The notes beneath the pieces were generated by a model. The model searched no databases, was not told where the DNA came from, and saw only the letters and a program-made list of their open reading frames with translations. The translations under genes and the position numbers were made by a program. This document shows positions 11,876 through 23,744 of a DNA stretch of 40,010 bases, in pieces (the stretch's first letter is position 1; the number at the start of each line of letters is the position of its first letter). Source of the DNA: Bacillota bacterium (lineage in GTDB: Bacteria > Bacillota > Sulfobacillia > UBA995 > UBA9673); contig QZJP01000083.1 in the NCBI GenBank assembly GCA_003599345.1, forward strand, positions 1 to 40,010, given 5' to 3'.

Positions 11876-13465
11876 GTGTTCCTGGCGCATCTTCGCAGGC
11901 CCGGCCCGCGCGGAAGACGCCGGCCGGTCCTCATCCTCGTCGCGGCCGGCGTGGTGGCCGCCGGCATAGCCGCCGCGGTCGTCTTCTCGGACTTCACGGA
12001 GACAGGTCTGTCCGGCCTGGACTTCACCTGGCCCTGGAGCCGCAAGCCGGAAGCTCTCGATCCGAAGGCCCCCATCGACCCGGCCAGGCAGTACCACCTG
12101 TCGGTCTGGGACTACGAACTGCCTTTCCGGTCACCCGGAGGAGCCCCGTTCAGCGACGCGGCCCGCCGGGCCATCGAGCGGTTCGAGCGCCGATACCCCA
12201 ACGTCAAGGTCGACCTGACCGTCCTGGATCCGGCGGACGGCCAGGCCAAGCTGGCTGAGGCGCTGCAGGCCGGATACCCGCCCGACGTCTACTGCAGCCC
12301 GTTCGGCCCCGGAGCCGTGGGTTCTGACTACCAGGTCCCGGTGGGGCTCTACCTCGACTACGACATCTGGGCAGGCTACGATCCCGTTGCCTGGCAGACG
12401 GTCAAGGTCGAGGGGACGGTCTGGTCCTACCCCCGCTGGCTCATGCTGTGGCCGTGGCTGGGAAACCGCGAGCTGCTGGCGGCGGCCGGCGTGGACACGG
12501 CCCGGGTCGCGGCCGAGGGCTGGACGAGGGATGAGTTCGCCGCCGCGATTGTCGCCCTCGCGGGTACGGGACGGCAGGCCCGACCCTCCGTTGCGGCGAC
12601 ATCGCCGGCCGTAGTCTTGAGGGACCTTCTCCTGCCGGGGCACCTGGCGGGCGAGACCCCCCAGCCGGCGGACCTCTACTGGCTCGGCGCCGAACCGGGA
12701 GCCGTAGCCCTGTGGCTGTCGGAGCTCAGAGACGCCGGAGCGCTTGCCGAGGACGGCAGGGGCACCAATCCGGGGGTCATCGATTCCTTCGTCCACGGGC
12801 GGACGTCTATCCTGGTGGCCCCGTCGCCGTGGGCGACGATGTTCATCCTGGAACCGGTCAGGCGCCCGCCGGCGTGGGAGTTCTCGCTTCCTCCCCGCGA
12901 CCGGCCGGCCATGGTCCTCCTTCCTCCCCCGCACGCCGCGGACCAGCCGTCGGCGGTGTGGGTGTCCGCGGCCACCGTCTCGGTCTTCCGGCAGGCCCGC
13001 TACAAGGGTGACGACCACACCCGCCTGGCCGCCGAACTGGCGCGCGAGCTGAGTGTCGGGACTCGCCCGTGGCTCCGCGACCAGCCCCTCTGCATACCCG
13101 CGGCTTACTCCGAGCAGGTCTCCTGGCGGCTGAGGGTGGGACGCTACGGGCAGGCCGGGGAGTTCGCCACCGGCTCCCTCCACCGGCTCGCCGAACTACC
13201 CAAGGACCGCCTCAGCCTGGCCCTGTCCGCTCTCACGTACGGGCCCCGTCCGCCAATCCCGAGCGACCAGCCTGAACCGGGCGACGCCGGGACGGGATTG
13301 GAGGTCCGCGGGAAGGAGCCGGCGGGGCCGCGTCTCACGTGGGGGTATCTTGGGCCCTTCCTGGCTGAGACCGTCGCGCCTGCCGCGGCCGACTTCTGGG
13401 CGGGCAGGACGGGGCCGGGGGACCTGGTGAGCGAGCTGACCGAAGGAATCCTAACTGGTGACTAG
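11876..13465 (+). CDS. Membrane-anchored family 1 solute-binding-like protein
   Basis: Protein of 529 aa resembling extracellular solute-binding proteins of sugar ABC transporters. It has an uncleaved-looking N-terminal helix (about 17-37, PVLILVAAGVVAAGIAAAVVF). The periplasmic-binding-type fold then begins YHLSVWDYELPF and continues through RRAIERFERRYPNVKVDLTVLD and ALQAGYPPDVYC. There is no lipobox, and no ABC permease or ATPase gene is nearby. Ligand-binding proteins without a transporter may act as sensors or wall-associated scaffolds (inference). The GTG at 11876 is about 10 bases from GGGGAG. Its 3' end overlaps the convergent histidine kinase ORF by 131 bp. Confidence 0.75.
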   Translation: MFLAHLRRPGPRGRRRPVLILVAAGVVAAGIAAAVVFSDFTETGLSGLDFTWPWSRKPEALDPKAPIDPARQYHLSVWDYELPFRSPGGAPFSDAARRAIERFERRYPNVKVDLTVLDPADGQAKLAEALQAGYPPDVYCSPFGPGAVGSDYQVPVGLYLDYDIWAGYDPVAWQTVKVEGTVWSYPRWLMLWPWLGNRELLAAAGVDTARVAAEGWTRDEFAAAIVALAGTGRQARPSVAATSPAVVLRDLLLPGHLAGETPQPADLYWLGAEPGAVALWLSELRDAGALAEDGRGTNPGVIDSFVHGRTSILVAPSPWATMFILEPVRRPPAWEFSLPPRDRPAMVLLPPPHAADQPSAVWVSAATVSVFRQARYKGDDHTRLAAELARELSVGTRPWLRDQPLCIPAAYSEQVSWRLRVGRYGQAGEFATGSLHRLAELPKDRLSLALSALTYGPRPPIPSDQPEPGDAGTGLEVRGKEPAGPRLTWGYLGPFLAETVAPAAADFWAGRTGPGDLVSELTEGILTGD

Positions 13466-14843
13466 CAAGCGGCAACCAGACCCGGACCGTGGTGCCGTGC
13501 CCGGGCCGGCTCTCCAGGGCGATTCTCCCGCCGTGAGCTTCCACGATTCGGCGGCACACCGCTAGTCCGAGGCCGGTGCCGGATTGCTTCGTAGTGAAGA
13601 ACGGCTCGAAGACGCGGTTCCGGTTCTCGCTGCTGATGCCGACACCGGTGTCTCGGACCTCCAGCAAGACCTCGCCTCCCTCGCGCCGGGCCTGCAGGGC
13701 GAGCTCGCCCCCGCGCGGCATAGCCTCGATGGCGTTGCGGCATAGGTTGAGGAGGACTTGTTTGAGGCGGGTGGGATCGGCCGTCACCTGCAAGGCCGGG
13801 TCGCACCCGGCGTAGGAGACACCCACCGGCTCGCGGCCCACGCACATGCTCCTCGCGAGGACCGCCGCCTCGGAGAGGAGGCCGTCCACGCTCATGTCGG
13901 TAGTGGGTTGGAGCCTCGGAGCCCTGCTGAACAGGGAGTAGTCCTCGAGAAGGCTTATGGCCCTGTCGAGCTCGCGGAGAGCCAGCCCGGCGTACTCCGG
14001 GACCTTGTTCCTCTGGACGAGAGTGAGCTGGAGAAAGCCCCTGACGGCCGTGAGAGGATTCTTGACCTCGTGGGCCAGGCCGGCCGCGGCCTCGAGGTGA
14101 GCGGAACGTTCCTGCCTCAGGCTGAGGCTGAGGTCGATGGCCTTGGCCGAGAACAGGGCCTGACCAAGAAGCGCCTCGGTGGCAGGTTGGAGCCTGGGCG
14201 GGAGAAGTACGGCTAGGCAACCCACCGGGACCGCGCTGCCCCCCAGCGGGACTCCGATGCCGCACAGGGTCGGAGACCTGTGTCTTCCGGGGGCCCGGCC
14301 GGGTTCCACCACGGCGACGGCCCCCTCGCTCAGGGCGAGACCGGCCGGGGTCAGCCCCGCGGCCTGGAGCGACAGGATTAGACCGGGCCTCGGCACGCAG
14401 GTCTCGGACCCGTAGCCCGCGGGGTCGGATGCGTCCGTCGCGACAACGTCCAGGACGACGCTCGAACTCTCTAAGACAGCAACCCACCCGGCCAGGCCGA
14501 GAGTGTTTCCGGCCCGCGCCAAGGCCTCGACATAGTCCCGGCAGGCGTTGACCAGCCAGTCGTTGTCCAGCCGGAAAGAAGATAGGTTCGACGCGTCCAC
14601 CGCCAGCGTGCCCCGGAGGGCCCTGCTCCGTGGAGTGAGAGACCCACCCCCGGGCCATTGGCCGGACCCGCTGACGACACGGAAACCGAGGCTCTGGGCC
14701 ACCGGCCTGATGGCGTCAAGTAAGACCCTCTTCGGGGCACCGCCCGGTGCCTTGTGTAGTTCCAGCCGAGCCACCTCGTCCCTCACGCTTCGGCGGTAGG
14801 AACTGCTCCCCGATGGCTCAAGGGCGCGGTGCAAGGGGGTCAC
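13335..14843 (-). CDS. Sensor histidine kinase of sporulation-kinase type
   Basis: Cytoplasmic kinase of 502 aa without transmembrane segments. A poorly conserved GAF-like sensory region occupies about residues 35-235. It is followed by a HisKA domain with AAGLAHEVKNPLTAVRGFLQL (His258) and a HATPase_c domain with NLCRNAIEAMP (N box), DTGVGI (G1), EPFFTTK (F box) and GTGLGLAV (G2). The H-box closely matches the KinA/KinB/KinE group feeding the Spo0A phosphorelay. The GTG start is 2 bp after the stop of the upstream Spo0E-like gene, so translation is coupled. The last ~40 residues after the HATPase domain are Pro/Ser/Arg-rich and antisense to the convergent solute-binding-like gene. They may be a read-through extension. 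Spo0F or Spo0A as target is inference. Confidence 0.9.
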   Translation of the reverse strand: MTPLHRALEPSGSSSYRRSVRDEVARLELHKAPGGAPKRVLLDAIRPVAQSLGFRVVSGSGQWPGGGSLTPRSRALRGTLAVDASNLSSFRLDNDWLVNACRDYVEALARAGNTLGLAGWVAVLESSSVVLDVVATDASDPAGYGSETCVPRPGLILSLQAAGLTPAGLALSEGAVAVVEPGRAPGRHRSPTLCGIGVPLGGSAVPVGCLAVLLPPRLQPATEALLGQALFSAKAIDLSLSLRQERSAHLEAAAGLAHEVKNPLTAVRGFLQLTLVQRNKVPEYAGLALRELDRAISLLEDYSLFSRAPRLQPTTDMSVDGLLSEAAVLARSMCVGREPVGVSYAGCDPALQVTADPTRLKQVLLNLCRNAIEAMPRGGELALQARREGGEVLLEVRDTGVGISSENRNRVFEPFFTTKQSGTGLGLAVCRRIVEAHGGRIALESRPGHGTTVRVWLPLASHQLGFLRSARSPGPPAPSCPPRSRPRQARRSQPGRAQDTPT

Positions 14844-14845
14844 GC

Positions 14846-16036
14846 CTATTCGTGGTAGCGTGTAAACCCCATGAACCGCTGCATCACGACGATGAGCCTA
14901 TCAAGATGCTCGCTCATCTCCCTGACGCGGGTGTCCTGGAAACCGAGTCCGCTGGCTACCGCTTCCTCTAGGACTTGCCGTTGCCGGTCGATTTCTTCGG
15001 CCAGGAAATGGCTGTCCATGACTATGGCCGTTGCATCGCCGGGCAACTGGTACACCGGGTCCCTCCCTTCCCTGTCCCTCGCCGCGGCGAGGTATGTTTG
15101 AAGGTCCAGAAGGTCACAGGCGGCCGCCAGAAGCGTTCCGGGGTCCGCCGTGTCGTCGGGGCAGACGGTGATGGCCATCGCCGCGATTTCGGGTCTCACA
15201 CCCCTGGTGTTGCCCGGCGGCCCAACGAGTCCCCAAAGAGACAAAGCTCTCGACATGTGCGGAGTGAGCATTCTCACCGCTTTGGCCCTCCCGGTTCGAA
15301 GGAGGACAAGGGCGATCTGGCTCGACTCAGGCCCGAAGCAGCTGAAACCCCGGCCGGTGTTCGCTCCTTTGGACGTGACGATGGGCCGCCCTCGCGAGGG
15401 GAGAAACCCGCGGCTGCCGGTACCGGCCAGGCGGGCCATGACCACCGTGACCGGTTCCTCGAGGCAAGTCCGTTCAAGGGCCGAGGACAAGTATCTCCAG
15501 AGATAGGGGTTCATGGCCTCGAGGCTCGAAGTCCGAAATGGCTGGGGATGCGACCTCATGTCCTCGTGCGGGACGGCGCGGGTGGACCGGGCGACGGTTA
15601 TGGAGATGGCGGTTCCGTAGGACAGAGCGCGGGCAAGGTCCACTTGCGCCCGGGTGAGGCTTGAGCCCTTGATCGGCTGGCCCGACACGACCCCGTGGAG
15701 ATGGCGGCTATCGTAGAGAGGTAGCGCGAAGCCTCCCGGCCCAGCCTCGAGATCGGATTCGAGAGCCCCGCGCTCAAGGGATATCGGGTGGGGTTCCGGT
15801 GAGACCTCGCTCCCGGCCCTCACCGCCCTGGCCGTCTCTATGAGATGGACCCGCTCGGAATCGTAGAGGAAGACGACGCAGGTCTCAAGGGGCAGCAGGT
15901 GGACTAGTCGCTGCGCGAGGTGGTCGGCTATCTCGCCGACCCCCGTGCCCCCCAACACGGGGGCCTTCCGCCGTTCGCCGCTGTCCGCTCCCCATTCCGG
16001 TTTGGGCCGGCTCCTGGCACTGTGATATCCGGTCAC
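14846..16036 (-). CDS. GAF and degenerate GGDEF-like protein with C-terminal Spo0E-like domain
   Basis: Protein of 396 aa with no close named relative that I recognise. Residues ~33-150 look like a GAF sensory domain (GVGEIADHLAQRLVHLLPLE, then GFALPLYDSRHLHGVV). Residues ~175-320 may be a degenerate GGDEF fold without active-site residues. The C-terminal ~50 residues match the Spo0E aspartyl-phosphatase pattern: an EIDRQRQVLEEAV helix, a Gly-containing turn, then SEHLDRLI (375-382). This lines up with the SQELD signature in which the aspartate is catalytic. Stand-alone Spo0E proteins are only 50-90 aa, so a large sensory fusion is unusual. The GTG at 16036 has GGAAGGAG upstream. It is coupled to the kinase downstream and lies 45 bp after the KaiC-like gene. 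Spo0E domain assignment is by eye. Confidence 0.7.
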   Translation of the reverse strand: MTGYHSARSRPKPEWGADSGERRKAPVLGGTGVGEIADHLAQRLVHLLPLETCVVFLYDSERVHLIETARAVRAGSEVSPEPHPISLERGALESDLEAGPGGFALPLYDSRHLHGVVSGQPIKGSSLTRAQVDLARALSYGTAISITVARSTRAVPHEDMRSHPQPFRTSSLEAMNPYLWRYLSSALERTCLEEPVTVVMARLAGTGSRGFLPSRGRPIVTSKGANTGRGFSCFGPESSQIALVLLRTGRAKAVRMLTPHMSRALSLWGLVGPPGNTRGVRPEIAAMAITVCPDDTADPGTLLAAACDLLDLQTYLAAARDREGRDPVYQLPGDATAIVMDSHFLAEEIDRQRQVLEEAVASGLGFQDTRVREMSEHLDRLIVVMQRFMGFTRYHE

Positions 16037-16081: not shown

Positions 16082-17464
16082 CTATGAGCCCACGACAAAG
16101 CCGGAACCCTCCTCGATAGTGAAGGGGAGGGCGCGGACACTCGCGCTCAGGCCGCGGCTCTTCAGGACGCGGAGTACGCGACGCGAGCCATTGTCGGGAC
16201 TTAGTAGCTCCAGATGCAGGGCGAAGTCGGCCAGCCGCTCACCTGAAACCTTGCGGGGAGCTACCGCGCCGTATGGGCCGAGGGTTGTGGTGGTCATCAC
16301 CGTGGTCACGCCGCGTCCTTGGAGAAGTTGGGAGATTGTGTAGAGGAATGCCTGGTAGTCGTCTTCCGGGATCGCCTGGGTGCTGAGATCGCTTACGGCG
16401 TCGAGGACCACCCGGCGCGCCCCGACACTATCCACCGCCTCCAGGAGGAGGTGGCCGAAGCGGTCGACCTCGACGTCGAGCGGCGGAGTGTGAAACATGA
16501 CAAGCAGCCGGTTCGCCTCGAGAGTCTCTGGGTCCCAACCGAAGTTGGAGCCGACCTGTTTGAGGCGCAGCGGGCTTTCCTGGAAGGAGGCGAAGACACC
16601 GGGCTCCCCCGCGGCGGCCCCCTGTAGGAGGAAGCTCAAGGCGAAAACTGTCTTTCCGCTGCCCACGGGACCGGACACGAGGGTCGTCGTGCCGCGGAGG
16701 ACACCCCCGCTAAGGTGTTCGTCAAGGCCCGCGATACCTGTCGCACAACACCCGTCGGTGGCTCCGACGGGCGCGGGCGTGATCGAACCCAGGCGAGGGT
16801 AGACGACCGCCCCGGCGCCGTCAATCACGAAGAGATGTGAGCCGGGCAGGAACGCCGAACCGCGCAGCTTGAGAATCTGCAGTGATCGCCTGCCGGACCG
16901 TCCGCTGGGCTCGTAGTCGATGTTGACGATGCCGTCGGCCACGGCGCTCGCGCGCGAGGTCAGTAGCTTATCGATCGGGCTTTCGTCAAGAAGGAATGTC
17001 ACGCAATCGAGCGCGCTCAAGGTGCCCGAAAGCTCGTACAGGAACACCGCCATCTCCCGGTCGCTCGAGGACAGGCCCTCAATGGCTCGGAAGCTGTCGA
17101 TCACCACGAACCCCGGAAGGTACTTGGACACCTCTTCTCTTATCACCGCGAGTGCCGCTTCCACCCCCCCGGTCGCCAGCGCACGGCCGAGATCGCGGTA
17201 GTGGATGACGCGGCCCGGGTAGTCGCGTCGGAAGAAGCCGAACGATTGGACATGGACGATGATCTTCTCGTAGGGCTCGGCCACGGTCGAGAAGTACAGC
17301 GCGGGACGGTCCGGAGCCGCGGCGCTGTAGACCACTTGCTGCGCCAGGACCGTCTTACCCCCGCCCGGCACACCTGACACCAGGTTGATGCTGGCCGCGG
17401 GAAGCCCGCCTCCCAGGATCTTGTCAAGACCTGGGATTCCCGTAGCCACACGACCGAAGGGCAT
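16082..17464 (-). CDS. Two-domain KaiC-like (RAD55/RecA-fold) ATPase
   Basis: Protein of 460 aa with tandem KaiC domains. Walker A motifs are GVPGGGKT (31-38) and GPVGSGKT (265-272), with Walker B strands FVVIDSFRA and RVVLDAVSD. Each domain opens with the KaiC-type TGIPGLDKILGGGLP or TGIAGLDEHLSGGVL. Compared by eye with cyanobacterial KaiC, the paired catalytic glutamates are lost in the first domain (FSTVAEP) and half kept in the second (SFQES). The Ser-Thr autophosphorylation pair is not conserved (SGERLADF). This argues for a signalling ATPase rather than a clock phospho-cycle. The ATG at 17464 has GGGAGG eight bases upstream; the ORF-track GTG overlaps that site. No KaiB or KaiA is nearby. 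It lies between the pseudo-receiver and Spo0E-like genes. Confidence 0.88.
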   Translation of the reverse strand: MPFGRVATGIPGLDKILGGGLPAASINLVSGVPGGGKTVLAQQVVYSAAAPDRPALYFSTVAEPYEKIIVHVQSFGFFRRDYPGRVIHYRDLGRALATGGVEAALAVIREEVSKYLPGFVVIDSFRAIEGLSSSDREMAVFLYELSGTLSALDCVTFLLDESPIDKLLTSRASAVADGIVNIDYEPSGRSGRRSLQILKLRGSAFLPGSHLFVIDGAGAVVYPRLGSITPAPVGATDGCCATGIAGLDEHLSGGVLRGTTTLVSGPVGSGKTVFALSFLLQGAAAGEPGVFASFQESPLRLKQVGSNFGWDPETLEANRLLVMFHTPPLDVEVDRFGHLLLEAVDSVGARRVVLDAVSDLSTQAIPEDDYQAFLYTISQLLQGRGVTTVMTTTTLGPYGAVAPRKVSGERLADFALHLELLSPDNGSRRVLRVLKSRGLSASVRALPFTIEEGSGFVVGS

Positions 17465-17504
17465 CCGTTGCACCTCCCATTGCTGCTTACCACAGCGATC
17501 AGGC

Positions 17505-17897
17505 CTATCCCCGTTCGATCAACCCGGCCACCAAGCCCGCCAAGGCGTGCCGTTGAGCCGGCTTCCGGAGGAACACGTCGGCTCCCGATTCGGCTGCTTC
17601 GTCCGCGGCGTCCAGCACGCTGAAGAGAACCACGGGCACGGACGAGATGCCGGGCCTCGACTTTATCTGCCGGCAGAGTTCCAGGCCGTCGGTCCCGGGC
17701 AGCAGGATCTCCAGGACGATGGCGGAAGGCCGGCGCGAGGCCATAGTTCTGAGGAGGGCGTCAGGCCGAAGGAACTCCAGGTGGAAGGACCTCAGCATCA
17801 CCCGCTGCATCTCGGCCATGAACGGGTTGGGTTCGACTACGTAGACCAGCTGGCCGCTGGCCGCGCCCGACGATTCGTGGGAAACCGCCCTGGGCAT
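17505..17897 (-). CDS. Pseudo-receiver (CheY-like) single-domain protein
   Basis: Stand-alone receiver-fold protein of 130 aa and first gene of the KaiC-like cassette. The fold is clear from VYVVEPNPFM (strand 1), AIVLEILLPGTDGLELCRQIK (strand 3 and loop), VPVVLFSV (strand 4, Ser93) and VFLRKPAQ (Lys112). The phospho-accepting aspartate is replaced by Glu63; the codon is GAG, read directly. The acidic pair of strand 1 is reduced to Glu-Pro. Without this pocket, magnesium binding and phosphorylation are not expected. Glu at this site can mimic a constitutively active state in some receivers. The ATG at 17897 has GAGGAG eight bases upstream. The KaiC-like gene starts 40 bp after its stop. Confidence 0.85.
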   Translation of the reverse strand: MPRAVSHESSGAASGQLVYVVEPNPFMAEMQRVMLRSFHLEFLRPDALLRTMASRRPSAIVLEILLPGTDGLELCRQIKSRPGISSVPVVLFSVLDAADEAAESGADVFLRKPAQRHALAGLVAGLIERG

Positions 17898-17989: not shown

Positions 17990-19252
17990 TCAGGCCTTTC
18001 CCGCAAGTATCTCAAGAAACGCGTCGACCCTTGTCGCGGTGGGCCCGGCCGAGTAAGCGCGGGAATCCGCCATATCGGCCTCGATGACCAGTGTGGGCAG
18101 CCCCAACTCGTCTCTGACGGCGCGCGCCAGCTCGTACTGGCCGAGGGAGTAGGTCTTGCAGCTCCGGCAGGAATGGAAGACAACCCCGTCCGCGCGTTGT
18201 GACCTCACCATGCGGAAGAGACGCTCCTTGCGTATCCCAAGACCGATGTTCAGGAGGATCAGGGAGTACTGCCTGGCCATGGCCTGGAGGGGATCGTGGG
18301 CGTCCGATGGGTCGAAATCGTAGATGCCCCAGGCATCGGTGTAGGTTTCGCCGACAAAGGCCGCGCCCCGCGCATGGAGGTATCGGACGAGGTCGAAATC
18401 GTACCAGATGGCGATGTTGTCCCAGATCAGACGGTACTTCTCCAGCGGCACCGCGCCGTAGCCCTGCTTCACGCGCTCCGAGAGTTCCTCCGTCACTTTG
18501 CGGTAGTAGTCGACGCAGGTCTTGGTGCCCCTCAGAGTGACGATAGGGAACATGTTCGTGAACATGTCCAGGGCCGAAGCCGGGGTCGGCGAGGCTTGGC
18601 GAAGGGCCTGGATGCCGTTCCAGAGCGAGACGGTCTGTCGCGTCAGCTCTAGGACCTCCGAGAGCTTCGACTCGAAGGCTTCCTTCGACGGGACACGCCG
18701 CCTAGCGGCCTTGGACGCGAAAACCACCAGGTCCTCGAGTTGTCCCTTGACGTAGGCGACCTGGTCGGGGTTCAGGCCGTCGGCGGCGTAGGGCGTGTCG
18801 AGGATGAAGAGCGGGCAGCCGAAGTGCCTGGCCGCAACCTCCCACCACTTCACGACCACGTCACAGATGTTCTTGGCCGCGACCAGCAGATCGGGAGGGG
18901 GTAGGGGTCTGCCCCCCAGCTCCCCCTGCCCGAGGAGGAAGGTGCCGATGTTGGTGCGAGCGTAGGCGCACAGGTCCAGGCTGTAACCAGCCTGCTCCGC
19001 CGCCTCACAGTAGGGTAGAGCGGCCTTCCGGCTGGCAACGAGGGCCCCGTAGTTCTCGGGGTAGACCGGCAGGATGCCGAGGGCCAGCAGGATCTCGACC
19101 GGGGCACCGCTGGTCACCCAGGCCACGGGCTTCCGGCCCAGGGGGCTCTTGGCCCGGAAGGCCGACATGTAGTGCTTGAGGATGAGGCCCTTGAGTTCAC
19201 GATCTACGGTCAGCCTACGGTCCTGGGCGATCTCACGCACAGGTTCGCTCAC
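17990..19252 (-). CDS. 2-hydroxyacyl-CoA dehydratase / benzoyl-CoA reductase subunit (HgdB/BcrB-like)
   Basis: HGD-D family protein of 420 aa, one half of an iron-sulfur heterodimer that carries out radical dehydration of 2-hydroxyacyl-CoA or ATP-driven reduction of an aromatic-ring acyl-CoA. Family features are the opening PVAWVTSGAPVEILLALGILPVYPEN, Cys82 and Cys95 (PYCEAAEQAGYSLDLCAYAR), VAAKNICDVVVKWWEVAARHFG, and a C-terminal CRSCK (362-366) with LVIEADMADSR. The pattern is closer to BcrB/BzdO than to HgdA by eye. The GTG start overlaps the stop of the upstream partner gene as GTGA, so expression is coupled. The ATPase activator needed to energise such enzymes is not in the window. Substrate is unknown. 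Confidence 0.87.
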   Translation of the reverse strand: MSEPVREIAQDRRLTVDRELKGLILKHYMSAFRAKSPLGRKPVAWVTSGAPVEILLALGILPVYPENYGALVASRKAALPYCEAAEQAGYSLDLCAYARTNIGTFLLGQGELGGRPLPPPDLLVAAKNICDVVVKWWEVAARHFGCPLFILDTPYAADGLNPDQVAYVKGQLEDLVVFASKAARRRVPSKEAFESKLSEVLELTRQTVSLWNGIQALRQASPTPASALDMFTNMFPIVTLRGTKTCVDYYRKVTEELSERVKQGYGAVPLEKYRLIWDNIAIWYDFDLVRYLHARGAAFVGETYTDAWGIYDFDPSDAHDPLQAMARQYSLILLNIGLGIRKERLFRMVRSQRADGVVFHSCRSCKTYSLGQYELARAVRDELGLPTLVIEADMADSRAYSAGPTATRVDAFLEILAGKA

Positions 19253-20514
19253 ATCCGGCCACCTCCCCGACCGGCCCGCGATGCGGCGGGGCCTCGCGCG
19301 CCGGCGGCCGCCCCCCGCGGATGACCCGGCCCGCGAGACGTACGCGCCGTCTGGCGCAGGGTCTCGATGAAGGCTTCGAGTCTCGTGCGGGCCTGACCGG
19401 TCGAGACCGCGCCGAGTTCCACCTCGATGACGAGCGACGGCACCCCTGCCTCCGCGAGAGTGTCGCGTAAGGCCGGGTAGTCGAAGGCGTGAGGATCGCA
19501 GAACTTCTGGAGGAGGAAGATGGCGCCGTCGACGCCGTCAGTGGTGGCCCGGCTCCGGATCTCCTCGAAGCGCCGGTCGGGCGGGTGCTTCGTGGGGCAC
19601 GGGGTGCGGCCGAGGTACATGGCGGCAAGACGGCGGTACGGGTCGGAGTCGTCCCCGGCGCCGAACTCCAGACGTCGACCGCCAAGGCAGAGGTCGTCCG
19701 AGACGATGTCCGCCCCCGATTCCTCGATGAGCCGCAAGGGCTCCTCGGTCTCGAGATAGCCTCCCAGCACCAGGACCCTGGGGCGGCCTCCGCCAGGCCG
19801 GGGCGGCGCCCCGGACGGCGTCCGGGACGGCGACACGGTCGCTCCCATCGCGGCTGTGAGCTCGTCCGCCACGGCCGCCGTCAGCGTCGCGGCCTCCCTG
19901 CGGTCGAGGACCGCGGCTCCGCGCGCCATCGCCATGTAGGTCGACCCGGGAAGGAGGTCCGGCCTCGCGCGGCGCACGCGGGCCAGGCCTTCGAGGTTCT
20001 GCCGGACTGCGCCGATGAGCCCGATCGCCCAGGCCAGGTCGTCGGGAGTCGGCGGGTGGGCGCCGTCGACTCCGCCCAGGGCCTCGGACAGCCGTCGCAT
20101 CTCGGACGCCGCGTAGTCGAGGACACCAGGACCTTCGATTCGTGCGGGGAGATTAAGAAAGTGCACGAGACGCCCCGGCGGGGCGCTGATGCGCCACGAT
20201 TCGAACGCCGCCCGGAGCGAGTCGCAGGTGTAGGCGAAGACGAAACCTTCGAGGCCGTTCCACCGGCCGGACAGCAGCCCGTCGAGGAGGGCCCGGGCGA
20301 AGGAGCACGAGAAGCTCTGCAGACGGCTGTCGGCCGGGCCCGTGGGTCCGGGCCTCGCCCCCAGCCTGACCGGGTGGAGACCCGCAGCCAGGATGATCTC
20401 CTCCGGGACGTAGGAACACACGTAGCCGACGGCCGGGCCTGGAGCGTGAGCGGCCGGGTCGGCACCGGCGGCCAGGAGCCGGTCCATGGCCCCGCTCGCC
20501 GTGCTGTTGGTCAT
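19249..20514 (-). CDS. 2-hydroxyacyl-CoA dehydratase / benzoyl-CoA reductase subunit (HgdB/BcrC-like)
   Basis: Second HGD-D family subunit (421 aa from ATG 20514, preceded by GGAGGG; the ORF-track GTG is six codons earlier). Typical motifs are VGYVCSYVPEEIILAAGLHPVRL (Cys33), QSFSCSFARALLDG (Cys70), FAYTCDSLRAAF (Cys97) and the C-terminal LQKFCDPHAFDYP with LVIEVELGAVSTGQARTRLEAF. These conserved cysteines are the expected ligands of a [4Fe-4S] cluster. The last ~35 residues are Gly/Ala/Arg-rich and outside the family core. Together with the downstream subunit it should form the catalytic heterodimer. It lies 34 bp after the DUF362-ferredoxin gene. Confidence 0.87.
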   Translation of the reverse strand: MTNSTASGAMDRLLAAGADPAAHAPGPAVGYVCSYVPEEIILAAGLHPVRLGARPGPTGPADSRLQSFSCSFARALLDGLLSGRWNGLEGFVFAYTCDSLRAAFESWRISAPPGRLVHFLNLPARIEGPGVLDYAASEMRRLSEALGGVDGAHPPTPDDLAWAIGLIGAVRQNLEGLARVRRARPDLLPGSTYMAMARGAAVLDRREAATLTAAVADELTAAMGATVSPSRTPSGAPPRPGGGRPRVLVLGGYLETEEPLRLIEESGADIVSDDLCLGGRRLEFGAGDDSDPYRRLAAMYLGRTPCPTKHPPDRRFEEIRSRATTDGVDGAIFLLQKFCDPHAFDYPALRDTLAEAGVPSLVIEVELGAVSTGQARTRLEAFIETLRQTARTSRGPGHPRGAAAGARGPAASRAGRGGGRM

Positions 20515-20548
20515 TGCCGGAGCCCCCTCCACCCGCTAGCGCTGCCTA

Positions 20549-21706
20549 CTAGTTCTTCCTGAACATCTTGTCGAAGAGCCCGGCGGCCTCTCCGGCGGGG
20601 ACTTCCATCGCCCCCTCGGTGCACAACTCGGCGCAGCAGAAACACGCTATGCACTTCGCCGGGTCGACCACGGGGTACGGGTCGAGAGTGATGGCTCCAG
20701 GCGGGCAGTTCTCGGCGCAATCACCGCACATGATGCACAGGCTCTCGTTGACGACCGGGTTGATGTTGCCGAGAGAGACCAGGATTTGAGCCTGTTCGTC
20801 GAGAGAGACCCCAATGGTATTCGGCATGGCGAAGTCCGGGATGGGTTCGATGTCGATGGGGCGGCCCTCGCCGTCGAGGGCCCGGAACTCCCCTGGACGG
20901 TACCTCCCCAGTGGGGCCTGGCCCTGGGCCTCGAGTTCGGCGGCCTTCTGGAACACCCTGAGTTGCATCGGTTCGACACCCATCATCAGCGACAGCACGG
21001 CGTCGACCGCCAGGCCGTCGGTCCCGGCGACCAGCTTCCCGAGCGGTCTTACCCGGCCGTGGCTCGGCCCATTCCCGTCCATGATGTAGAGAGCGTCGAC
21101 GATGTGCAGATCCGGCACCCGCAGGGAGTAGATGTCGAGGAGAACGTGGGCGAACCGCCCGCGGGAGAAGGCCGCCAGGTGCAGCTTGGCCTTGTTCGTG
21201 CCGGCGACATAACCGAAGCAGTTCTTGACCGCTCCCGTGAGGGTTGTGAGCATGTGCGTCTTGAAGACGGGGACGTTGATGACGTGGCCGGCCTCCAAGA
21301 TGTACTTGGAGATGACGAGCTTCCCGGCGTACGGGTTGGATACGGCCTTCTCCACGACCTCGTCGGACAGGTTGCGGAAGCAGCCCTCCGCGGCGTCGTA
21401 GATGCCGCAGGTCCTTGCGGTATGAAGCGAGTTCCTATCCACTCCGCCCGGGTTGTCGCCCACCGCGGGTTGCCCTCCCGCCCGCCGGACGGCCCTCACG
21501 ATGGCCGTCACCAGCGACGGTGTGGTCGTCACATGCAGCTCGGGCGGCGCCGGCGCCAGGATGTTCGGCTTTATGAGCGCGCTTCGCCCCTTGAGCCGCT
21601 CCCCGGCGCCGGTAAGGGCGAAGATGGTGTCGACCGCCTGTTCGAGGGCTGGCAGCCCGGGGTCGGGGCCGCCCAGGTCCAGTATGTAGACGTCGCTCGT
21701 GTCCAC
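20549..21706 (-). CDS. DUF362 protein with C-terminal 2[4Fe-4S] ferredoxin domain
   Basis: Protein of 385 aa. The N-terminal ~290 residues are a DUF362 domain (ALIKPNILAPAPPE, GGQPAVGDNPGG, VFKTHMLTTLTGAVKNCFGYVAG). The C-terminus carries two [4Fe-4S] motifs, CIMCGDCAENCPPGA and CIACFCCAELCTEGA. Proteins of this kind are common in anaerobes and are thought to be electron carriers or metallo-cofactor proteins; the DUF362 chemistry is unknown. The operon position between an acyl-CoA ligase and two HgdB/BcrB-type subunits suggests it delivers electrons to that enzyme (inference). GTG start at 21706; an AGGTG sits a little far upstream. Confidence 0.88.
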   Translation of the reverse strand: MDTSDVYILDLGGPDPGLPALEQAVDTIFALTGAGERLKGRSALIKPNILAPAPPELHVTTTPSLVTAIVRAVRRAGGQPAVGDNPGGVDRNSLHTARTCGIYDAAEGCFRNLSDEVVEKAVSNPYAGKLVISKYILEAGHVINVPVFKTHMLTTLTGAVKNCFGYVAGTNKAKLHLAAFSRGRFAHVLLDIYSLRVPDLHIVDALYIMDGNGPSHGRVRPLGKLVAGTDGLAVDAVLSLMMGVEPMQLRVFQKAAELEAQGQAPLGRYRPGEFRALDGEGRPIDIEPIPDFAMPNTIGVSLDEQAQILVSLGNINPVVNESLCIMCGDCAENCPPGAITLDPYPVVDPAKCIACFCCAELCTEGAMEVPAGEAAGLFDKMFRKN

Positions 21707-21758: not shown

Positions 21759-23450
21759 CTAGCCCGCTTCCTCGCGCTTCTTCCGCTCCTCCTCGGCCAG
21801 AACCCTCCTCAGGACCTTCCCGACGAATGTCCTCGGCAGTTCGGAGCGGAATTCCACGTACTTGGGGACCTTGTACTTGGCGAGCTTGCTCTTGCAGTAG
21901 TCGATGACCTCCTCGGCCGCGAGGTGCTCACCGGGCTTGAGGACGACGAACACCTTGACCGCCTCGCCCCGGTACTCGTCCGGCACGCCGACCGCCGCGG
22001 CTTCGAGGATGGCCGGGTGCTCGTAGAGGACCTCGTCGATTTCGCGTGGGTAGATGTTGAACCCGCCGGCGATGATGAGCTCCTTCTTCCGGTCGACGAT
22101 GTAGGTGTAGCCGTCTTCGTCCATCTTGGCGATGTCTCCCGTGTAGAGCCAGCCGTTTCGGAGCGTCTCCTTCGTCTCGTCCGGACGGTTCCAGTAGCCC
22201 TTCATCACCTGGGGGCCCTTGAGGATGAGCTCGCCGGTCTCGCCAACGGGCATTTCCTTGTCACCGGTGTCCGGGTCTACCACTTTCGACACCGTGTCCG
22301 GGAAGGGCAGGCCGATGCTGCCGGCCTTCCGGTTCCCGAAGAGCGGGTTAGAATGAGTCACCGGCGACGCTTCGCTCAACCCGTAGCCTTCCGAGAGATA
22401 GCCGCCGGTGATCTCCTCGAACCTCTTCTGGACCTCGACCGGCAGGGCTGCGGAGCCGGATAGACAAGCCCCGACGGACTTGAGGTCGTACTTCTTCACG
22501 TCGAGGTGGTTGTTGATCGCGATGTACATGGTCGGAGCGCCGGGGAACAGGGTCGGCTTCCACTTATCGATGGCCTTGAGAATGTCCTCGACGATGAACC
22601 TCGGAATGAGGATCATCGAGGCGCCGATCGCCGAGGATAGGTTCATGCAGCAGGTCATGCCGTAGCTATGGAAGAGCGGCAGGACGGTCATGATGCGCTC
22701 CTGGCCCGGCTTGGTCTCCGGGTACCACCTGTAGACCTGGGTCGCGTTGACGACCATGTTCCGGTGGGTCAGCATGCATCCCTTGGAAACGCCCGTGGTC
22801 CCGCCGGTGTACTGCAGGCAGCAGAGGTCCTCAGCCAGGTCGAACTCGTAGGCCGGCGGGTTCGGCCCGTACTGCTTCAAGAGGTCGGTAAGCTGGTAGT
22901 TGCCGGCGGTGGGCGGGACCTCGACGTAGGTTCCGTCCTTCTTGGCCTTGATCGGGTAGAGCTGCCTCAGGGGGAAGGGGAGGAAGTCCTTCATGCTGGT
23001 CCAGATGATCTTCTCAAGTCCGGCACCCTCCCGGACCTTGGAGAGGCGTCCGAAAAGGAGATCGAGAGCGATCATCACTTTCGACCCGGAGTCAGTGACC
23101 TGGTGGTGTATCTCGCGCTCCACGTAGAGGGGGTTGAAGGCGACCACGACCCCGCCCGCCTTGAGCACGCCGTAGTAGGCGATGACCATCTGCGGAGAGT
23201 TCGGGAGCATTATCGCCACCCTGTCACCCTTCCTGACTCCCAGGGCGGCGAGGGCGGCGGCGAACCTGTAGACCTTGTCCAGGAGCTGGCGGTAGGTTAG
23301 CTTGCCCCCCATGAAGATGGTGGCGACGTTGTTCGGGTACCTCTCGGCCGCCTCCTCGAGAAGCCCGTGCACCGGGATGCCCGGGTAGTCGATGTGCCGC
23401 GGCACCCCTTCGGAGTAGTTCTTGACCCAGACAGACTCAAAGTCCGGCAC
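21759..23450 (-). CDS. Long-chain-type acyl-CoA synthetase (AMP-forming)
   Basis: Adenylate-forming ligase that activates a carboxylic acid to its CoA thioester with ATP. It has the P-loop YTGGTTGVSKG (about residues 214-224), GYGLSEASPVTH (A5-like), GELILKGPQVMKGYWNRPDET, GWLYTGDIAKMDEDGY with the ribose-binding Asp, and the hinge VDRKKELIIAGGFNIYPREIDEVL. The C-terminal catalytic Lys is in GKVLRRVL. I placed the start at GTG 23450 (563 aa; AAGGGGG seven bases upstream), because the 32 preceding residues in the ORF-track entry are not family-like. It is the first gene of the four-gene operon, 52 bp before the DUF362 gene. Chain length or aromaticity of the substrate is not evident. Confidence 0.9.
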   Translation of the reverse strand: MPDFESVWVKNYSEGVPRHIDYPGIPVHGLLEEAAERYPNNVATIFMGGKLTYRQLLDKVYRFAAALAALGVRKGDRVAIMLPNSPQMVIAYYGVLKAGGVVVAFNPLYVEREIHHQVTDSGSKVMIALDLLFGRLSKVREGAGLEKIIWTSMKDFLPFPLRQLYPIKAKKDGTYVEVPPTAGNYQLTDLLKQYGPNPPAYEFDLAEDLCCLQYTGGTTGVSKGCMLTHRNMVVNATQVYRWYPETKPGQERIMTVLPLFHSYGMTCCMNLSSAIGASMILIPRFIVEDILKAIDKWKPTLFPGAPTMYIAINNHLDVKKYDLKSVGACLSGSAALPVEVQKRFEEITGGYLSEGYGLSEASPVTHSNPLFGNRKAGSIGLPFPDTVSKVVDPDTGDKEMPVGETGELILKGPQVMKGYWNRPDETKETLRNGWLYTGDIAKMDEDGYTYIVDRKKELIIAGGFNIYPREIDEVLYEHPAILEAAAVGVPDEYRGEAVKVFVVLKPGEHLAAEEVIDYCKSKLAKYKVPKYVEFRSELPRTFVGKVLRRVLAEEERKKREEAG

Positions 23451-23744
23451 TGCTCTTCCCCCTTTCCCCCTCCTAGAGGACTCCGACCGAAGCACCTTCG
23501 AGGCTGGGGTGCGGCCCGCGCGGTCGTGCCCGGACCTTGCACCCAAGCTCGGTGATAGTGCCTGGTATGGAGCTAATTGCTGGGGGGAGCAGTGGATTCC
23601 TGCCTGAGTTGAGCCAATAGTCAGCCTACCCTGGCAATTGCCCGGGCTGGGTCGAAGGGCCGGGTCGTGGACTTAGTGGGAAGTCAGAAAGGCCTGTGCG
23701 ATGACCACACAGACCCCTTGGTTCCTGCTGGGAGGGGACTGGCA
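23451..23744. other. Intergenic stretch without recognisable genes
   Basis: About 290 bases between the acyl-CoA synthetase start and the gene remnant beside hicB. I find no ORF with a convincing ribosome binding site or family match. It should contain the promoter of the acyl-CoA synthetase operon, but I cannot point to a clear -35/-10 pair. A short palindrome (ACTAGC-4-GCTAGT, near 23743-23758) marks its lower-numbered side of the remnant and may be a weak terminator for it. Confidence 0.4.

Follow-up and report, generated by a model that had tools for sequence, protein, structure and literature searches.

What can a receiver domain contribute to a signaling operon once the aspartate at its phospho-acceptor site has given way to glutamate, and is such a replacement an accident of one genome or a state that related bacteria have kept? 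The question is raised by a small gene in the window, by which we mean the whole 40,010-nucleotide stretch of contig QZJP01000083.1 analyzed here, from a member of the Bacillota whose genome assembly is 2.3 Mb and 82% complete and which belongs to a family of four genomes in an order of eight. The gene (17505..17897, minus strand) encodes a stand-alone Glu-type pseudo-receiver of 130 amino acids. A TGAGGAG motif about 8 nt before its ATG supports this start, and its G+C content by codon position (0.68/0.47/0.85) has the pattern of a coding frame. Residues 18-120 match Pfam Response_reg (PF00072) at 46.1 bits against a cut-off of 30.2, and an AlphaFold2 model, whose input included six aligned relatives, predicts a complete receiver fold of (beta-alpha)5 type (pLDDT 88.8, pTM 0.81). 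The top Foldseek matches were receiver domains, the best PDB entry, 3gt7, among them.

Translation, codons, and alignment bore out every residue that the first-pass annotation had named. The acceptor position is occupied by Glu63 (codon GAG, CTC on the plus strand; 17709..17711); the acidic pair reads Glu22-Pro23 (GAA CCC; 17829..17834), so that the first acid is retained and the second, metal-binding acid, at the position of CheY Asp13, is proline; Ser93 (17619..17621) fills the T position and Lys112 (17562..17564) the K position. Phe109 (17571..17573), the aromatic residue three before the lysine, marks the position of Y-T coupling. With the acceptor aspartate missing and a proline in the pocket, the protein is, by sequence, a member of the aspartate-less or pseudo-receiver class.

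The receiver gene lies within an operon. It had been described as the first gene of its cassette, a placement that does not hold: it is the fifth of eight genes that lie on one strand, the first at 21759-23546 and the last at 13335-14843, and follows conserved dehydratase-like genes. The run opens with an acyl-CoA ligase-like gene (21759-23546) and continues, on the minus strand, with a protein combining DUF362 and a 4Fe-4S ferredoxin (20549..21706) that is conserved with the operon, and with two HGD-D subunits (19249..20532 and 17990..19252), the latter a 2-hydroxyacyl-CoA dehydratase/benzoyl-CoA reductase-like protein immediately upstream of the receiver, in a context kept across the family. 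Only 31 bp past the receiver gene starts kaiC (16082..17473), whose product, a probable partner of the receiver, is a KaiC-like ATPase of two RecA domains in which the Walker A motif occurs twice (GVPGGGKT and GPVGSGKT; Pfam KaiC, 230 bits). This is followed by a family-specific protein with a weak GAF domain and a C-terminal Spo0E-like domain (14846..16036; Pfam SpoOE-like, 24.7 bits against a cut-off of 23) and by a cytoplasmic histidine kinase (13335..14843; Pfam HisKA and HATPase_c) with the H-box HEVKNPLTAVRGFLQL. Promoter and terminator scans at this locus returned no more than chance expectation. The DUF362-ferredoxin protein and the two HGD-D subunits (17990-21706) accompany the kinase operon in 4/4 family genomes and represent an uncharacterized enzyme, a dehydratase or a reductase, that is linked with a sensor kinase. 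The N-terminal half of the KaiC-like protein aligns best with CII of cyanobacterial KaiC and the C-terminal half with CI, and its domain order thus looks exchanged.

Orthologues of the receiver were found in the family genomes G003 (L068:4244-4660) and G001 (L069:8964-9380) and in the sister-family genome G004 (L070:9651-10022), with 52%, 50%, and 37% identity to the window receiver, respectively; the three come from two genera of the window family and from one sister family. All three carry the acceptor Glu together with a nonacidic second pocket residue (acidic pairs E-P, D-P, and E-R, respectively), which rules out a one-off mutation and agrees with the earlier proposal that conservation of Glu63 would mark selection. 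A canonical receiver at first taken for the occupant of the receiver slot in G004 is a neighboring gene, and the true orthologue there is the Glu-bearing one. Applied to 399 genomes of the phylum, a profile of the window receiver and its orthologues added two proteins from another class, in G467 and G423, in which the Glu receiver forms the N-terminal domain and KaiC the second (Pfam receiver, 71-86 bits; KaiC, 90-98 bits), with acceptor Glu and the acidic pairs E-N and D-G. The six aligned proteins, at 33-53% identity, share Glu63, Gly71, Phe109, and Lys112 without exception and have S or T at position 93; each carries an acid at the first pocket position, and none does at the second (P, P, P, R, N, G). 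The suggestion of a selected pseudo-receiver is thus strengthened, as Glu63 is present and the second pocket acid lost in 6/6 related stand-alone or KaiC-fused receivers, a group that so far counts six members from few genomes, in three families and two classes.

This group is sharply bounded: across 154 genomes of the class, the receiver profile scored the four class members at 173-185 bits and the next receiver at 101. Among 89 aligned receiver matches, which were collected by their similarity to a query with Glu and are therefore only indicative, Asp was the acceptor residue in 76; Gln occurred in 3 and Glu in 10. Nine of these ten are the window receiver and its three orthologues, counted repeatedly through overlapping loci, and the tenth is an unrelated Myxococcota receiver. 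For comparison, about 4% of receivers are reported to be without the acceptor Asp, and Glu makes up 26% of those substitutions (PMC4395418; PMC12632262). Further searches for Glu receivers gave distant receivers only in a scan of genome contigs and a single distant match in viral contigs, and a DNA pattern for the motif VV(D/E)PNPFM matched exactly in the three family members only.

A tree built from 64 receivers placed the six Glu proteins together, along with a receiver from G154 that is fused to a kinase, on one side of a 99/97 branch, set against 56 other receivers. In the G154 domain, the acceptor position is Asp, but Asn replaces the second acid and Arg the Lys, so that by its pocket residues it is also a pseudo-receiver; it forms a long branch whose exact place is unsure, and its locus is syntenic with those of the receiver-KaiC fusions, sharing metK, a Gfo/Idh-type oxidoreductase, and a recD2-like helicase. 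The sole clade member with Asp is fused to a kinase and devoid of two other pocket residues, and among the orthologues in the same context we found none that combines Asp with a full acidic pocket, the case that, according to the first-pass annotation, would have made the substitution a one-off mutation. In G154, the pseudo-receiver is fused to a GAF-PAS-kinase (L145:3957-6496), and the gene after it encodes a canonical single-domain receiver that groups with the canonical receiver adjoining the Glu receiver of G004 (94/82).

Association with KaiC recurs outside the window. KaiC adjoins the Glu receiver in the window and in G004, and in G467 and G423 a GAF histidine kinase comes after the N-terminal Glu-receiver fusion. 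The KaiC proteins of G004, G423, and G467 group at 98/94, and that of the window, a long branch, joins them weakly (51/90). At 18 other related KaiC loci from the phylum and class samples, kaiC is preceded by an unrelated protein of about 120 amino acids without a Pfam family, which places the Glu receiver in a conserved KaiC partner position. The receiver had been proposed as a possible fixed partner of KaiC or of the kinase; an association with KaiC is supported, by adjacency and by fusion, but a strictly fixed partnership is not, and KaiC is neither adjacent to nor fused with every clade member, given the kinase-fused G154 domain. In G003, kaiC was not found in the assembly and the Glu receiver gene is kept, overlapping the next, GAF/Spo0E-like gene by 4 bp; in G001, a 41-aa kaiC remnant follows the Glu receiver. 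KaiC is thus dispensable for retention of the receiver, which two family members keep without an intact kaiC, and within the window family something else must account for its persistence, the kinase or the Spo0E-like protein being the simplest candidates. The G002 operon, from dehydratase to kinase, is without receiver or KaiC. The KaiC block itself (L147-L162, L080, L081), which is conserved across many genomes of the phylum, consists of a helical-looking protein of about 120 amino acids, KaiC, and then commonly a sensor protein, which in one example examined carries a PocR domain.

The kinase at the end of the window operon has the specificity residues TAGFQL, identical to those of KinA/KinE of Bacillus subtilis (Table 1 of PMC6136694), and is by these residues a putative Spo0-type sporulation kinase; the G001 and G002 kinases read TAGFEL and AAGFQL. 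The protein family encoded at 14846-16036 is present in 4/4 genomes of the window family and in 0/150 other class genomes, with its Spo0E-like domain above the Pfam cut-off in the window, G003, and G001 and below it in G002. Taken together, the KinA/KinE-type residues and the Spo0E-like neighbor suggest, at the level of sequence, a sporulation-input setting for the window operon. Spo0A was detected in 6/8 genomes of the order and was not found in the 82%-complete window assembly, and a search for a clear Spo0F found none. Identity of the window receiver with Spo0F can be ruled out, since its helix-1 specificity residues are NFMMVM, not QGILEV, and its acceptor is Glu63; as these residues also bear no resemblance to the NEFLDY of the relatives' Spo0A, the receiver is no plain decoy of either protein. 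Helix 1 is only slightly conserved in the family (identity of 0.63 versus 0.55 overall), a difference to which we give no weight.

A Glu kept by relatives, sometimes in fusion with KaiC, points to a probably nonphosphorylated adaptor and away from a mutational accident. We therefore favor, with moderate confidence, a phosphorylation-independent pseudo-receiver that serves as a protein-protein adaptor between the KaiC-like ATPase and the cytoplasmic sensor histidine kinase. The acceptor substitution, its conservation, the clade, and the adjacency and fusion to KaiC are read directly from the sequences. Having Glu for Asp and no second metal-binding acid, the protein would take up no phosphoryl group from a kinase and would not bind Mg2+ normally, and its predicted intact fold, with Glu63, Ser93, Phe109, and Lys112 retained, may offer a docking surface. 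The ancestral receiver would have been seated on, or next to, KaiC's N-terminal RecA domain, to which it is fused in one lineage, and we infer that signaling would run from KaiC, whose nucleotide or assembly state the receiver would pass to the kinase, which in the window family resembles a Spo0-type sporulation kinase. A broader version is more tentative and, in our judgment, rather doubtful: the Glu pseudo-receiver lineage as a whole might be a dedicated subunit of noncyanobacterial KaiC-like ATPases that relays to a kinase and, in the window family, through the KinA-like kinase and the Spo0E-like protein to sporulation entry.

Two other accounts, each of which we regard as unlikely yet deserving of weight, are partly compatible with the adaptor. 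Glu63 might contact Ser93 and Lys112 and hold an active-like surface, in which case the protein would signal whenever it is made and would be regulated by expression alone. Such a constitutively active phosphomimic would fit the conservation of Glu63, Ser93, Phe109, and Lys112, and both Asp-to-Glu changes and CheY D13K activate some regulators (PMC4671073; PMC4395418; PMC12632262), the latter recalling the Arg at the second-acid position in G004. Published Asp-to-Glu changes in receivers are, however, sometimes activating and often not (PMC4395418; PMC12632262; PMC4671073): equivalent changes failed to activate EpsW (PMC4671073), ChxR activity survived replacement of its Glu (PMC4395418), and the window receiver comes without an output domain or known target. 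About equally improbable to us is direct regulation of the kinase, in which the pseudo-receiver would bind the DHp domain as a nonreacting look-alike of the substrate and inhibit or tune the enzyme in the manner of Osp and CckA. A kinase lies in the receiver's block in the window, G003, G004, G467, and G423, the G154 member of the clade is fused to one, G003, in which KaiC is missing, still has the receiver, the Spo0E-like protein, and the kinase, and Osp provides a published precedent (PMC9430884). Yet the helix-1 residues resemble those of neither Spo0F nor Spo0A while the window kinase is of KinA type, the kinases beside Glu receivers differ in type between families and lineages, and the G001 receiver is unlinked to the kinase operon.

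Far less probable is neutral decay, or a one-off mutation, of a formerly canonical receiver, despite the loss of both the acceptor Asp and the second acid, the absence of the gene from G002, and the decay of kaiC in G001: open frames with the same Glu persist in six genomes from three families and two classes, well beyond the background frequency, and the predicted fold is intact (AlphaFold2). We give slightly less credence still to the idea that Glu63 is itself phosphorylated or methylated and the protein still a switch, a possibility raised for Glu pseudo-receivers in a paper that knew of no example in bacterial signaling (PMC4395418) and one at odds with the missing second metal-binding acid of the window receiver.

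Relative to described systems, the adaptor that we favor combines familiar parts. Pseudo-receivers of the cyanobacterial clock, namely the KaiA N-domain and CikA, work with a KaiC system. The likeness to them is one of role with KaiC, with no sequence relation implied, and unlike them the window protein belongs to the Response_reg family of Pfam; the partners described for it here are a KaiC-like ATPase and a kinase, not KaiA or KaiB. It resembles the Glu-class aspartate-less receivers ChxR, plant PRRs, and ascomycete Rim15 in its receiver fold, acceptor Glu, retained first acid and Lys, and lost second acid, a common pattern in this class (PMC4395418), and differs from them in standing alone in a block with KaiC and a kinase instead of being a DNA-binding regulator or kinase tail. 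Methanosarcinaceae KaiC-receiver fusions (PMC5847659) likewise link a receiver to a KaiC-family ATPase; those are archaeal, whereas the receivers described here are bacterial and, when fused, N-terminal to KaiC; they are of Glu type. Osp of Rhodobacter sphaeroides (PMC9430884) is also a single-domain receiver-like protein with a broken pocket and acts without phosphorylation, but unlike the window receiver it keeps Asp and has lost both acids and the Lys, and no counterpart of CckA, its target, emerged from this analysis.

Glu pseudo-receivers and archaeal KaiC-receiver fusions were thus already known, and the new part is the conserved pairing and fusion with KaiC; a limited search of the open-licence literature found no description of a Glu receiver lineage tied to KaiC with a kinase alongside. 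According to published accounts, the way in which bacterial pseudo-receivers are switched is not known (PMC12632262), and most noncyanobacterial KaiC proteins are of unclear function (PMC5520375). A Glu receiver that neighbors KaiC in two families, forms a fusion with it in a third, and is kinase-fused in a relative offers a small, directly testable pair for both pseudo-receiver switching and KaiC function; should the kinase of the window operon prove to be of Spo0 type, a KaiC-like ATPase would also be linked to sporulation control. The acceptor Glu also occurs independently in a Myxococcota protein (L062:7566-8405), in which a receiver of the pattern D-P-N ... Glu stands behind an N-terminal region that appears PilZ-like by eye.
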